Source: Natrinema ejinorense
GTDB taxonomy: Archaea > Halobacteriota > Halobacteria > Halobacteriales > Natrialbaceae
Reading direction: 5' to 3'
NCBI RefSeq assembly: GCF_002494345.1
Contig: NZ_NXNI01000001.1
Coordinates: 1,798,001 to 1,862,000, forward strand
DNA: 64,000 nt
A program made the position numbers and the translations under genes. The notes below the pieces were generated by a model. It did not search any database, was not told the DNA's origin, and saw only the letters and a list, made by a program, of their open reading frames with translations. Shown here in pieces: positions 19,203 to 24,383 of this stretch (position 1 is its first letter; the number at the start of each line of letters is the position of its first letter).

Positions 19203-19661
19203 TTACGCCGCCACCGCGACCACGACGTTCTGGACGTACCGCATACTCGTCGCGATCGCCATGATCCCGTCCATCAGCGCCTGCTGGGTGGCACCGTCGG
19301 GATAGATCCGATACTCCACCTGTACCGTCTCCGCCTCGCGCAACTGGCAGGACGCGCCGTCCTCGTCGAGGAACGTGTAGAACCCCGGCGTCGCCGCCAG
19401 CATCGGTCCGACGTACTCGAGTAACTCGCCGCGTCGCTGATCGTCGCGAAGCAGGTTCCTGGCTCGTTCGGTGTCGAACCCGCTTTGGCCGACGATTCGA
19501 ACCGGCCCGAACTCGTCTTCCTTGATGACGTGGACCGGAAGCTGTGAGAGTTCGACCTGGAAGTTGAACTCGGTATCCTCGCCGGCGTGGGAAGTCACGT
19601 TCCGGATCGCCGTATCGTCCAGCCAGTGACGGACCTGCGTCTCGCTGATGTGTCTCGCCAT
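19203..19661 (-). CDS. DUF2299-like archaeal protein
   Basis: The 152-residue acidic protein has alternating beta strands and helices with a RIYPDGATQQALMDGIMAIATS motif near the C-terminus. That motif and the VHVIKEDEFGPVRIVGQ strand match what I recall of archaeal DUF2299. Function is unknown; the fold resembles two-layer chaperone-like or YbjN-like domains. The start ATG 19661 is the first Met. It lies between tupA and the acidic four-gene operon, with 98 bp to the latter. Confidence 0.65.
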   Translation of the reverse strand: MARHISETQVRHWLDDTAIRNVTSHAGEDTEFNFQVELSQLPVHVIKEDEFGPVRIVGQSGFDTERARNLLRDDQRRGELLEYVGPMLAATPGFYTFLDEDGASCQLREAETVQVEYRIYPDGATQQALMDGIMAIATSMRYVQNVVVAVAA

Positions 19662-19759: not shown

Positions 19760-20575
19760 CTAGCCGTGCTTGTCCGGCATCGTCGAGTGACGCGTGACCC
19801 CATGCATGTCCGCCCGCTCGGACGGGGGTGGTGGCATCGTCGAATGGCGGCTCGGACCGCCCGACGTTCCGCGAGTCCGGTCGCCGCCGAGCCCCGATCC
19901 GAGAACTCCCTCGTCTTCCTCTTCGTCCGCCGTTTCTGCCTCGTCAGCCGCTTCTTCGGTACCACCCTCGTCCCCGGACCCGGCGTCGGCAGCCGTCTCG
20001 TCGGCCGCCGACGCGTCGCTGCGGGCGGGTCCCTCACTCGCGGAGTCGAGTCGCTCTCTGAGTTGCGCCACATCGTCGCCGAATTGCTCGAACGAGGACC
20101 GCATCGACGATCGGAGTCGATCCCCGAGGTCGTCGGACGTCTCCTCCGCCGTGTCGCCTCCGGATGCCTCCGTGTCCGCGTCCGTCCTCGCGGATTCCTC
20201 CCGGTCACCGATCGTCTCCCGAAGGCCGTCGGCGGTCGCTTCGAGATCACGTTCGTCCGCTCGGTCGGCGAGTTTCGCGAGGTGGAGCAACCGCTGCAGG
20301 TCCTCGAGGTTCTCCTGGTCGCCCCGTGCGATGGCCTCCGGAATCGACTTCGGTTCGGTTCCGTCCGCGAGCGTGTCCAGCCCCACCGCCGCGAGCAGGT
20401 CGGCGGGGTCGGCGGTCTCGAGTAGCTCGTTCGCTTCCTCGGCGGTCTCGAGCAGGGTCATTTTGGGGGACTCGTCCTCGCCAGCCGAGTCGTCGTCGGC
20501 GACGACCGAGTGGCTCGACGCGGCGGCCCGGTTCAATACCTCGTCCACTCGATCCCGTAGTCGTGAGTCGTTCAT
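19760..20575 (-). CDS. Acidic protein of the glycine-zipper operon, gene 4
   Basis: The 271-residue protein is not of a family I know. Residues 1-110 are helical (LLETAEEANELLETADPADLLAAVGL), including LEDLQRLLHLAKLAD. Residues about 120-225 are an Asp/Glu/Ala/Ser-rich low-complexity tract. The C-terminus is different: it carries two copies of RHSTMP (about 246-251 and 262-267) separated by PPPPSERADMHGVT, a possible short linear motif. No signal peptide is seen. It is the last gene of the run, 69 bp after the SAP-like gene. ATG 20575 is chosen because the eight residues upstream of it look unrelated. Confidence 0.7.
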   Translation of the reverse strand: MNDSRLRDRVDEVLNRAAASSHSVVADDDSAGEDESPKMTLLETAEEANELLETADPADLLAAVGLDTLADGTEPKSIPEAIARGDQENLEDLQRLLHLAKLADRADERDLEATADGLRETIGDREESARTDADTEASGGDTAEETSDDLGDRLRSSMRSSFEQFGDDVAQLRERLDSASEGPARSDASAADETAADAGSGDEGGTEEAADEAETADEEEDEGVLGSGLGGDRTRGTSGGPSRHSTMPPPPSERADMHGVTRHSTMPDKHG

Positions 20576-20644
20576 AGTTGTCTCCTGGTATGACCGCACG
20601 GCGTCGGTCCCGCGATCCGTGATGGGGAGAGACGTGTCGGTCGA

Positions 20645-21415
20645 CTACTCGGCTGTTGCCTCCGCTTCTGACCCCGAGTCGTCGTCGCTCTCCTCGTCGA
20701 TCACTGCCCCGATGATTGCGTCGGTCATCTCCTCCCGGCTGAGGTTCGCCTTCACGCCGACGTCCTTCGCGACCGACTGCAAGTCGCTGTAGGACATCAC
20801 CCCGAGGAAGTCCTCGAGGGTGTCCGTCCTGAGGTCCTCGAGGTCATCCATCGACGGCTCCGCCTCGGGCTCGTCGGGCGTCTCGGCTTCGTCGGACGCC
20901 TCGGCTTCCGTCGCTTCCTGCTCGGCCGCAGCCGTCTCGTCTTCACCGTCGGCGTCGCTCTCGGACACGTCCTCCTCGGGTGCCGCCTGCGCATCGCTCT
21001 CCGACTCGTCTTCGGCAGGCTCGTCACGTCCGTCGCCGCCGATGCTATCGAGAAGTCCCTCGACGCTGCTGCCGTCGGTCACACTCCTGGCTACCGACTC
21101 GAGCGAATCGCGGCCCGTGATCTCCGAGATCGAGTCCCCGAGAGCGTCCCGAATCGCCGCCGATAATTCGGTTCTGATCTCGCCGAGTCCTTTCCCCTCG
21201 TCGACGCCTTCGGCGATCGTCTCGTGGACTTCTCGGCCGACCGCCGCCCCGACCTCGCGGCCGAACTGTTCGCCGAACTGTCGACCGACCGCTGCGCCGA
21301 CCTCGCCGCCGTCGATGCTGTCTTCGATGGGGCCGTCGCCGAGCATATCGGCGACATCGAGTTGATTGCTCACCTCGTTGGCCACCATCCCCTTCAGTCC
21401 GGATCCGTCACTCAC
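20645..21415 (-). CDS. Acidic glycine-zipper protein with SAP-like C-terminus, gene 3
   Basis: The 256-residue protein is read from GTG 21415. Gly occurs at 36, 40, 44, 48, 52, 56 and 60, a perfect i+4 glycine zipper (GEVGAAVGRQFGEQFGREVG), a pattern that packs helices tightly and can insert in membranes. Amphipathic helices follow (70-120). An acidic Glu/Asp/Ala tract (about 130-195) leads to a compact C-terminal helical module (LEDFLGVMSYSDLQSVAKDVG...SREEMTDAIIGAV) resembling SAP or Rho-N domains that bind nucleic acid. Function unknown. It lies 53 bp after gene 2. Confidence 0.7.
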   Translation of the reverse strand: MSDGSGLKGMVANEVSNQLDVADMLGDGPIEDSIDGGEVGAAVGRQFGEQFGREVGAAVGREVHETIAEGVDEGKGLGEIRTELSAAIRDALGDSISEITGRDSLESVARSVTDGSSVEGLLDSIGGDGRDEPAEDESESDAQAAPEEDVSESDADGEDETAAAEQEATEAEASDEAETPDEPEAEPSMDDLEDLRTDTLEDFLGVMSYSDLQSVAKDVGVKANLSREEMTDAIIGAVIDEESDDDSGSEAEATAE

Positions 21416-21468
21416 GGCGACCACCTCGAGCCGGGCCGTCGAGCGGGAGCGTGTGCTGCATCACGGTG

Positions 21469-21906
21469 TTACTCCTCGGCTTCGGTCGCCTGCTCCGATT
21501 CCTCGTCCGCCGATTCCTCGTCCGCCGATGCCTCGCCTTCCTCGCCCGATTCGGAATCGTCTTGGGCCTCGTCTTCGCCGCTCTCGTCGTCCGCTTCGGT
21601 CTCGGGCTCGTCCGCTTCCTCACCCTCCGCAGCCGTTTCCTCGCTTTCCTCGGCGGCCTCCTCGCCTTCCTCCTCGTCGCCGGAACTGAGCAGTTCGTCG
21701 ACGACCATGTTCCCGATCGTTCGTCCGAGGGATTCGCCGATCGCTCGCCCGAGGATCGCGCCGATCTGTCCGCCAAGCGCTTCCCCGAGCGGCTTGTCCC
21801 CGTCGATCTCGTCCTCCCACTGGGTCCCCTCGACCAGTTCGTCGACGTCGACGTTTTCGGTGATCTTCTCGGTATCGATCCGCTGTGTGATTGAATCGTC
21901 GCTCAT
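21469..21906 (-). CDS. Acidic glycine-zipper protein, gene 2
   Basis: The 145-residue protein starts MSDDSITQRIDTEKITENVD. Gly at 41, 45, 49, 53, 57, 61 and 65 forms a seven-step i+4 glycine zipper (GEALGGQIGAILGRAIGESL), the same design as in the neighbouring gene. From residue 76 onward the chain is almost wholly Glu, Asp, Ser and Ala. No family is recognised. ATG 21906 overlaps the stop of gene 1 (ATGA), a sign of translational coupling. The zipper could form a membrane-bound or self-assembling helix bundle with an acidic brush; this is inference. Confidence 0.72.
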   Translation of the reverse strand: MSDDSITQRIDTEKITENVDVDELVEGTQWEDEIDGDKPLGEALGGQIGAILGRAIGESLGRTIGNMVVDELLSSGDEEEGEEAAEESEETAAEGEEADEPETEADDESGEDEAQDDSESGEEGEASADEESADEESEQATEAEE

Positions 21907-22856
21907 GATGATGCTTCCGCCTGTGACGGCTCCGCCTGTCCGCCGGCCTCTTCCTCACGCTCCGGCTCGAGTCGTTCGATTAGCTGTTCGATTACTTCGC
22001 TGACGATCATCGCCACGATCTCCTCGGTCGGGAAGCTGGGAACGAGCCCGGACAGCTTCTCTCTGAGCCAGCTGGCCGCCCTGGAGATGCGACCCGGCGT
22101 CTCGTCGCCCTCGCTCGGTTCCGCTTCCTCGTCGTCGGCTGCTGGTTCCGCTTCCTCGGCGTCCGGTTCGTCAGTCTCCGCCGGTTCGCCAGCGCCACCG
22201 CCAACGAGTCCACTGAGCCACTCCCCGGGCTTGCTGAGTGCGCTATTGAGCCACTCTCTGGGCTTGCCAAGTACGTTGCTGAGCAGCTCTTTTGGCTTGC
22301 TAACCAGGGAACTGAGCAGCTCTTTTGGTTTGCCCAGTAGCGACTGGACCTTGTCAAGCAGGGCGCCGGGGCCGTCGAGAAGTCCCGTGACTGCCGATAG
22401 CAGGTTCCCGAGCAGGTTGTTCCCGCCGGGTCGCGCCGAGACGTCGAGCGTGACCGGATTCAGGTTCACCTCGAGGCCGAGCAGATCCAGGAAGAGGCCG
22501 TCGAGGTCGAGGTGGAGGACGCCGGCCGTTTCGTCGTCCTGGTAGACATCGTCGGCGTCTTCGACGTGGTACTCGTCTTCTTCCTCGTCGTCGGTGTCCT
22601 CCCCGTCCGTTTCAGCTTCTTCTTCGCCCTCCTCCTCGGCTTCCGTTTCGTCTTCTCCTTCCGTGGTCCCGGTTTCTTCCTCGGTCTCTTCTTTTTCGTC
22701 CTCGTCTTCGCTTTCGACTGCGCCTTCGGATTCGTCTTCCCCTCCCTGGGTCTCCTCGCTTTCGGCAGTGTCCGCCTCCCCTTCCTCGGCGTCGGCTTCC
22801 GCTTCCTCGGGCTGGTCGCCGGACTCCTCCATCCCCGCCTGTCCGCCGTCGGTCAT
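21903..22856 (-). CDS. Acidic protein with 11-residue amphipathic repeats, gene 1
   Basis: The 317-residue protein has an acidic N-terminal tract (9-110). Next comes a leucine-rich segment with LHLDLDGLFLDLLGLEVNL and RPGGNNLLGNLL (113-160). Four 11-residue repeats with consensus LSxxLxKPxEL/W span 170-213. A second acidic linker follows, then a helical tail (SWLREKLSGL, IVAMIVSEVIEQLIERL). I place the start at ATG 22856 because the 39 residues before it (to ATG 22973) are Arg-rich and unlike the rest. It heads the four-gene run; no signal peptide is seen. Regular 11-residue repeats are typical of helices that lie on lipid surfaces or granules. Confidence 0.72.
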   Translation of the reverse strand: MTDGGQAGMEESGDQPEEAEADAEEGEADTAESEETQGGEDESEGAVESEDEDEKEETEEETGTTEGEDETEAEEEGEEEAETDGEDTDDEEEDEYHVEDADDVYQDDETAGVLHLDLDGLFLDLLGLEVNLNPVTLDVSARPGGNNLLGNLLSAVTGLLDGPGALLDKVQSLLGKPKELLSSLVSKPKELLSNVLGKPREWLNSALSKPGEWLSGLVGGGAGEPAETDEPDAEEAEPAADDEEAEPSEGDETPGRISRAASWLREKLSGLVPSFPTEEIVAMIVSEVIEQLIERLEPEREEEAGGQAEPSQAEASS

Positions 22857-23081
22857 CACCCGGCATGGCGGTCCCGTCGTCCGCTCAGTTTCGTCGAGAC
22901 GGCTCGAGGAGCGTTCGACCCGCCCGGGATCGGAACGCACCTCGCGACCGTCGCGTGCAGAACTCTCGGTCATTATACGGGAGAGCGGACGCTCGTGAGC
23001 GTTGTGGGGGTTGGCCTTGCGTATGCGACTAGTCAACAGTATCGCCGTGGACCCATCCGAGAAACCGACCGATCGACGGCG

Positions 23082-24383
23082 CTACTCGAGCGAGCCGACC
23101 CAGACTGCGTACTCGCCGCGCGTCTCGCCCTCGTCGTGGTATGCGACGGGTTCCTCGATGGCTGCGACCGTTCCGCCCTCGACAGCGGCCGCGGTCGCGA
23201 TTCCGTCGAGATGCTCGGTGGCGCTCGCGCCGGACTCGAGGTCGAACCAGCGGACGGCGTGGGTGTCCGGGTCGCGAACGCGGAAGTTCTGGGCGCAGGG
23301 AGCGACGAGTCGCCCGCCGTCGGCGGCGAGGCCGTGGACGAAGCCGCGAACCTCGTCGTCCCACAGGAGGGCACCGTCGGCGTCGAACGCGGCGACCCGG
23401 TGTTCGTGCGGATGTCGACGCTCCGTCTCGCGGCTCTCGATCGCGTAGGTGTTGCCGGTCACGAACGCCACACGACCGTCGTTCGCGTAGGCGTGGTTCG
23501 GGTAGGCGTACAGCGTCTCGTCCTCGAGTTCGGTCTCGACTGCGAGGTCGACGCGCCAGCGCTCGGCACCGCCGGGACCCAACAGGTAGCCGCGTTTGTC
23601 GCCGTGACTCGAGACGGCGATCGACTTCCCGTCGAAGGAGACGTCGCCGACGCGGCGGTCGCCTTCCGTTCCGGGATCCCAGTTCCACAGGGTGTCGCCC
23701 GACTCGGCCTCGAGAACGACGAGCCCGGTGTCGTGATCACCCATACAGCGGTTGTAGCCCACGGCGAGGCGCTCGCCGTCGTCGTCGAGGTCGAGCGCGA
23801 TCGGCGACGCGTCGGTCTCGTCGGTCCACCGGACCGACCCGTCGGGATCGAACGCGTAGACAGTGCTGTGCCACCGTCGGGTTTCACCGTCGCGCTCGTA
23901 GCGTCGCGCAGCGGCGTAGAGCCGCTCGTTGCCGTCGGCGTCGGTGCCGGTCTCGAGGGAGACGACATAGGGCAAGTAGAAGACGGTGTCTTTGACCGCC
24001 TCGCCGATGTCGTCGGCGGTGTCGTACCGCCAGCGCCGATCGCCCGTCGCGGCGTCGTAGGCCGCGATCGCCCCGGTATCGCCCCGGCCGGCGACGACGA
24101 CCGTGCCGCCGCGCTCGTCTCCGTCAGCCACGCTCCCCTCCAGCGACGCGATCCCGACCGCGTGATCCGGATGCTCGACCGTCCACCGGACCTCGAGCGA
24201 GTCGGCATCGCGGGCGGTGACGGTCCCGTCCCACTCGCCGGTCACGACGAGATTTCCGGACGCCGCCACCTCGACCGCGGATCGGGTCCACATATGGCGG
24301 CTCCGGGCCGTCTCGATCTCGCCGAGCGGGACCGACCGGAACTCGAGGGACCGGTCGCGTTCGGTATCGGCAGTGTCGGCCAT
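23082..24383 (-). CDS. Beta-propeller protein of the cobalamin operon (PQQ/WD-like)
   Basis: The 433-residue protein contains about seven repeats of the PQQ/BamB propeller type, each with a GxxxAxDAxxGxxxW-like core (for example AIAAYDAATGDRRWRYD, LVVLEAESGDTLWNWD). There is no signal peptide, so it is probably cytoplasmic. It may be a scaffold for the corrin enzymes; no enzyme motif is present. It ends the cbi operon, 2 bp after the DUF3209 gene, and its co-transcription is the only clue to function. Confidence 0.8.
   Translation of the reverse strand: MADTADTERDRSLEFRSVPLGEIETARSRHMWTRSAVEVAASGNLVVTGEWDGTVTARDADSLEVRWTVEHPDHAVGIASLEGSVADGDERGGTVVVAGRGDTGAIAAYDAATGDRRWRYDTADDIGEAVKDTVFYLPYVVSLETGTDADGNERLYAAARRYERDGETRRWHSTVYAFDPDGSVRWTDETDASPIALDLDDDGERLAVGYNRCMGDHDTGLVVLEAESGDTLWNWDPGTEGDRRVGDVSFDGKSIAVSSHGDKRGYLLGPGGAERWRVDLAVETELEDETLYAYPNHAYANDGRVAFVTGNTYAIESRETERRHPHEHRVAAFDADGALLWDDEVRGFVHGLAADGGRLVAPCAQNFRVRDPDTHAVRWFDLESGASATEHLDGIATAAAVEGGTVAAIEEPVAYHDEGETRGEYAVWVGSLE

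Follow-up and report, generated by a model that had tools for sequence, protein, structure and literature searches.

A four-gene operon of Natrinema ejinorense as a probable second, unlinked gas-vesicle locus of haloarchaea without GvpC

The locus and its genes

The window analyzed in this work is a stretch of 64,000 nucleotides from the haloarchaeon Natrinema ejinorense, in which four tandem genes, called here A to D, lie on the minus strand. The open reading frames are found where the original prediction had placed them (22856-21903, 21906-21469, 21415-20645, and 20575-19760), and A and B overlap by the ATGA at 21903-21906, as it had described. While the proposed end of gene A stands, its start is probably the ATG at 22973 rather than position 22856, since an N-terminal motif of its relatives, ending in R[VL]x[TP]DGG, maps upstream of 22856; the protein would then have 356 residues. 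The features of the locus, and the gas-vesicle (gvp) cluster of the same genome, are listed below.

19760..20575, minus strand: gene D, encoding a GvpI-like protein (hhalign against long GvpI)
19775..19849, minus strand: doubled RHSTMP tail of D, a GvpI hallmark ([x]STMP...[x]STVP)
20645..21415, minus strand: gene C, with a glycine-zipper helical hairpin, an acidic linker, and a SAP/Rho-N-like end
20672..20851, minus strand: SAP/Rho-N-like C-terminal domain of C, residues 189-248; pLDDT 91-95 over residues 191-240
21236..21310, minus strand: glycine zipper of C, residues 36-60; G44/48/52/56 invariant in 32 sequences
21469..21906, minus strand: gene B, with a glycine-zipper helix and an acidic tail; paralogue of C
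21712..21786, minus strand: glycine zipper of B, residues 41-65; G49/G53/G57 invariant in 29 sequences
21903..22973, minus strand: gene A (start inferred), with an acidic tract, an invariant core, 11-residue repeats, and a C-terminal amphipathic helix; new family
22200..22331, minus strand: four 11-residue repeats of A (KPxE[LW]L...), seen as self-identity at lag 11
22374..22520, minus strand: core of A, VLHLDLDGLFLDLLGLEVNLNPVTLDVSARPGGNNLLGNLLSAVTGLLD, common to all relatives; 12 invariant columns in 52 sequences
23001..23026, minus strand: 26-bp element CGCAYACGCAAGGNNAANNNCCACAAC, 27 nt before the inferred start of A
23082-24383, minus strand: PQQ propeller gene, upstream of the operon
G000:C1:2260000-2279900, strand not given: own gvp cluster (L093), gvpA-N-O and gvpF-G-H-[304-aa protein]-J-K-L-M, about 450 kb from the operon

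A GTDB search with one genome per species returned 38 operon loci, all of them from Natrialbaceae (Natrinema, Natronorubrum, Natrialba, Halopiger, Natronococcus, and others), one of which is cut by a contig end. With heuristic gene calls in the compared loci, A-B-C-D stand in this order and on one strand in 37 of the 37 complete ones, which bears out the proposal of a single operon. Plasmid records searched for the operon gave no match. B and C are paralogues, as a B query retrieves C, and in two loci (L071 and L073) a single protein fuses the zipper of B to the end of C.

The neighboring genes were considered as further members of the operon and rejected. The upstream PQQ-propeller gene is a common neighbor, but it remains where the operon has been lost; an ARAGORN tRNA-Arg call at 24006-24093 (minus strand) falls within this gene on the same strand and is probably a false positive. 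The downstream genes, tupA and one for a DUF2299-like protein (19203-19661, minus strand, between D and tupA), are variable neighbors across loci.

The element CGCAYACGCAAGGNNAANNNCCACAAC was absent from the original prediction. The core is matched exactly in 25 of the 38 Natrialbaceae loci and with 1-3 mismatches in the other 13, while the genome of N. ejinorense has no second site at up to 2 mismatches. It lacks a recognizable TATA box and is probably a promoter or activator site or a 5' UTR element. Because its conservation extends to would-be third codon positions, a DNA or RNA element is favored over an extended protein, although this argument is informal. When sought at the genome's own gvp cluster as a shared cis element, CGCAYACGCAAGGNNAANNNCCACAAC was not found; the operon is therefore probably controlled on its own.

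Architecture of the four proteins

No family had been recognized for any of the four proteins. This holds for A, B, and C, which have no match to any curated family in profile searches, but not for D, which hhalign relates to GvpI; the curated libraries searched with A-D gave nothing above cut-off.

All relatives of A share a 49-residue core and a C-terminal helix. The predicted 11-residue repeats are genuine, with a self-identity of 49% at lag 11 and 46% at lag 22 that was reached by 0 of 20,000 shuffles. Their count differs among relatives, and the most distant ones have no repeat, so the repeat is not the defining part of A. The protein was detected in 65 of 194 Halobacteria genomes, every one of them GvpA-positive; no diverged A was found at E 0.05 in the GvpA-positive genomes that lack it, and none occurred outside Halobacteria among the matches listed for 295 genomes drawn from the phylum. 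A resemblance between LLGLEV and LVGIEI gave rise to the idea that the core is a GvpA-like hairpin, which was rejected: the hhalign probability was 0.05 per cent, and the core has no detectable similarity to the hairpin of the GvpA/J/M shell family. Against solved structures, the A profile gave only helical, chance-like matches, including apolipoprotein A-I (E 0.024). AlphaFold2 modeled A too poorly for a structure search (pLDDT 58.7), and a coat role of this protein is for that reason guesswork.

In B and C, the runs of seven glycines at i+4 spacing are exactly as originally described. The longest run obtained by chance in 20,000 residue shuffles per protein was 6, against 7 observed, and runs of at least 5 arose 20 and 79 times in the two sets of shuffles. 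Since the central glycines are invariant within each family, the zipper is maintained by selection. The Pfam family Gly-zipper_Omp matches 5 of 29 B members at E <= 0.01 (best 3.7e-5); B and C of the window score below the Pfam cut-offs. In the AlphaFold2 model of C, the glycine zipper forms a 37-residue helix that pairs with another one; the acidic linker is disordered, and the end of the protein is compact and made of three helices. The proposed SAP-like character of this end has tentative support as a fold resemblance of the predicted model, though not from a Pfam SAP match: its superposition on SAP and Rho structures spans 42-54 residues at 1.7-2.6 A, with Z values of 5-6.5, a range that is not conclusive, and that on the Rho RNA-binding domain spans 45 residues at 1.7 A (Z 6.0).

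The D family aligns with 10 long GvpI-type proteins at an hhalign probability of 99.4 (E 3.7e-21). The doubled RHSTMP end reported for D is real and conserved across its family, and the same doubled motif, as STMP/STVP, recurs in the GvpI proteins encoded by classical and long-GvpI clusters; in one GvpC-type cluster, the GvpI sequence is NPTAHSTMPPQ...NSHSTVPKTPKYS...RLYGQRL. D has neither the RxYGxR end nor a place between gvpH and gvpJ, while its paralogue L093_7 has both. D is therefore a GvpI-like protein and not a GvpI orthologue.

Association with gas-vesicle genes

The gvp cluster of N. ejinorense itself contains neither gvpC nor gvpDE, and a GvpC query against this genome found nothing. 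Its gvpI slot is taken by a 304-aa relative (paralogue) of D. Clusters of this GvpC-less kind have the standard accessory set and a GvpA highly similar to that of gas vesicles.

In a survey of 194 Halobacteria genomes for A, B, GvpA, PhaC, and GvpC, A or B was found in 66, and GvpA in 66 of these 66; 13 GvpA-positive genomes lack both A and B. Within Natrialbaceae, 47 of 50 genomes have the operon together with GvpA, and A and B are missing from just three, which are also the only GvpA-negative ones. Outside this family, GvpA occurs in 19 of 19 operon-positive genomes and in 13 of 125 others (Fisher p 1e-15, a value that overstates independence because the genomes are related). Support independent of kinship comes from at least two or three losses and from the spread of these 19 genomes over 11 genera of 6 other families.

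Physical linkage is seen as well. In eight non-Natrialbaceae genomes, homologues lie about 5 kb or less from gvpA, inside or beside the gvp cluster (linked loci L071-L073, L076, L080, L081, and L086), while the operon is unlinked in N. ejinorense and many others. One linked locus (L073) has the order D'-GvpH-GvpG-GvpF / GvpA-GvpO-Zn-ribbon-A'-B/C', where Pfam confirms GvpA, O, F, G, and H beside A', B/C', and D'; another (L076) reads C' / GvpO GvpA / GvpF GvpG GvpH A' B' D' GvpK GvpL GvpJ/M. A zinc-ribbon protein of about 112 residues is encoded between gvpO and A' in linked clusters (L071_6, L072_6, and L073_7).

Where the system is being lost, both parts are affected. One genome (G092) lacks GvpA and GvpF/L and retains only pieces of A, B, and C between the PQQ and tupA genes, and two others (G028 and G046) lack both the operon and GvpA. 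A further genome (G193) has kept GvpA, but its gvpN (L096) has an internal deletion of residues 50-275, the core of A is lost, and D is frameshifted near its end. That unlinked loci decay together argues strongly for a single function. Taken with the homology described above, the operon almost certainly belongs to the gas-vesicle system.

GvpC is distributed in nearly the opposite way. Among GvpA-positive genomes, it was counted in 1 and was missing from 65 of those with the operon, against 8 and 5 of those without it (p 4e-7, again overstating independence); weak GvpC matches in G137 (E 9e-4) and G147 (E 2e-4) were counted as chance. None of the eight genomes with a clear GvpC adjoining GvpA has A or B. 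Only G005 carries both the operon and GvpC, and it contains two gvp clusters (L094 and L095), of which one lacks GvpC and the other has it. This genome is a close relative, and its GvpC (L095_16) ends in a SAP-like segment. Five GvpA-positive genomes lack GvpC and have no detectable A or B either, although a B/C-like gene lies by the cluster of one of them (G157).

Proposed role and alternatives

We consider it likely that the operon is a second, unlinked gvp locus, which contributes three new accessory families (A-C) and the GvpI-like D to clusters devoid of GvpC and GvpD/E. This reading is founded on the observed co-occurrence with GvpA, linkage to gvp genes, homology of D to GvpI, joint decay, and near-exclusion with GvpC.

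In Halobacterium, vesicle length is limited by GvpI, which forms a pair with GvpH and also binds GvpL, GvpF, and GvpC, and the vesicle shell is strengthened by GvpC (PMC7688916, PMC9501494). Because D is GvpI-like and A and B avoid GvpC, the operon probably serves in assembly, shape, or coat formation rather than in regulation, albeit with less assurance than its assignment as a gvp locus. The original prediction that the proteins are built to assemble or to coat fits this role, to which their build would lend itself. D might bind the accessory complex, as GvpI does in Halobacterium; A might pack onto the surface of the shell by means of its amphipathic repeats and the helix at its C-terminus; and B and C might oligomerize by their glycine-zipper helices. 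Jointly, the four proteins would act on the GvpA shell by nucleating, limiting, or reinforcing it, a task performed elsewhere by GvpC, with expression probably set apart from that of the main cluster by the dedicated upstream element. That A-D replace GvpC specifically is conceivable, though we lean slightly against it. More tentative still is a broader proposal, in which A-D would serve a second haloarchaeal vesicle type as its alternative module for coat and shape, replacing GvpC, governed by their own promoter element, and representing the missing condition behind Natrialbaceae that are Vac-minus in culture.

The main rival, which we find improbable, gives the operon a regulatory function: it would stand in for GvpD/GvpE in controlling gvp transcription, with the SAP/Rho-N-like end of C binding nucleic acid. 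GvpDE are indeed missing from these clusters (PMC4390858, PMC3403918, and the gene content of L093), the fold of the C end is predicted to be of the appropriate kind, and a dedicated upstream element is present; however, this element does not recur at the gvp cluster, and A-D, all very acidic and mostly disordered or of the glycine-zipper type, are unlike regulators. Moreover, D is a relative of a structural accessory, and the SAP-like segment of the GvpC in G005 places this module in structural Gvp proteins.

A somewhat less probable alternative is that GvpA, GvpN, and A-D build a different GvpA-based structure and not a gas-filled buoyancy vesicle. Several operon-bearing lineages are reported to be vesicle-free in culture, five carriers of GvpC-less gvp clusters are listed as making no vesicles, and every carrier on Pfeifer's list is Vac- in culture with 11 gvp genes intact (PMC4390858); a vesicle phenotype is on record for few of the surveyed species. 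The operon is also unlike every characterized gvp set. Nevertheless, the close similarity of GvpA to its gas-vesicle counterparts and the standard accessory set speak for true vesicles, and the failure to form them in culture may merely reflect a lack of induction.

The earlier suggestion that A-D coat polyhydroxyalkanoate granules is very improbable: although 11-residue amphipathic repeats resemble lipid- or granule-binding helices (with a weak apolipoprotein A-I match) and A or B shows a weak overall association with PhaC (p 0.004), which is expected because both are common in Natrialbaceae, the operon does not track PhaC across the 194 genomes, since 11 operon-positive Natrialbaceae lack PhaC, G028, G046, and G092 have PhaC and no operon, PhaC is frequent beyond Natrialbaceae in genomes without the operon, most PhaC-positive genomes of family f3 among them, and the genome's own phaC lies about 220 kb away.

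Many haloarchaeal genera carry GvpC-less gvp clusters, and the operon is the obvious missing part of them, as GvpA accompanies it in every case and GvpC almost never. The haloarchaeal vesicle genetics reported in PMC7688916 and PMC9501494 rests on the GvpC-type cluster of Halobacterium; a GvpC-less type with accessory genes of its own would thus add a second vesicle system, one that could be tuned independently. A-D are prime candidates for the building and shaping of vesicles in 'non-floating' species. The question of why gvp carriers lack vesicles thus becomes testable, and three new protein families as well as a paralogous GvpI gain a testable function.

Comparison with known systems

The long GvpI and the cluster without GvpC/D/E of Natrialba magadii have been described (PMC3403918), and the GvpC-less clusters of this species, Natrinema pellirubrum, Halopiger, and others (PMC4390858, PMC3403918) have the same gvp content as that of N. 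ejinorense. These two reports describe the main cluster alone; no mention of the unlinked A-D operon was found in them or in the gas-vesicle reviews consulted.

The glycine-zipper proteins of Pfam (Gly-zipper_Omp and Rick_17kDa_Anti) share the GxxxGxxxG helix with B and C, which differ from them in having no evident signal peptide and in carrying charged residues between the glycines. The surface protein GvpC resembles A in its amphipathic helical repeats and acidic stretches and, in the case of L095_16, C in its SAP-like end, and it occurs in gvp clusters without A/B. In contrast to GvpC, with which it has no sequence match, A has repeats of 11 residues instead of 32-40 and no C-terminal zinc finger.

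D is related to GvpI of haloarchaeal gas-vesicle clusters, including that of Hbt. salinarum and long forms such as Nmag_0338 (PMC3403918). D differs from it in stopping after the second STMP, in being acidic (pI 4.15, against 10.8 for Hbt. GvpI; PMC9501494), and in its place in a separate operon, with the gvpI slot occupied by a paralogue; what the two share is an N-terminal region, as found in long GvpI, and the tail with its doubled STMP/STVP motif.
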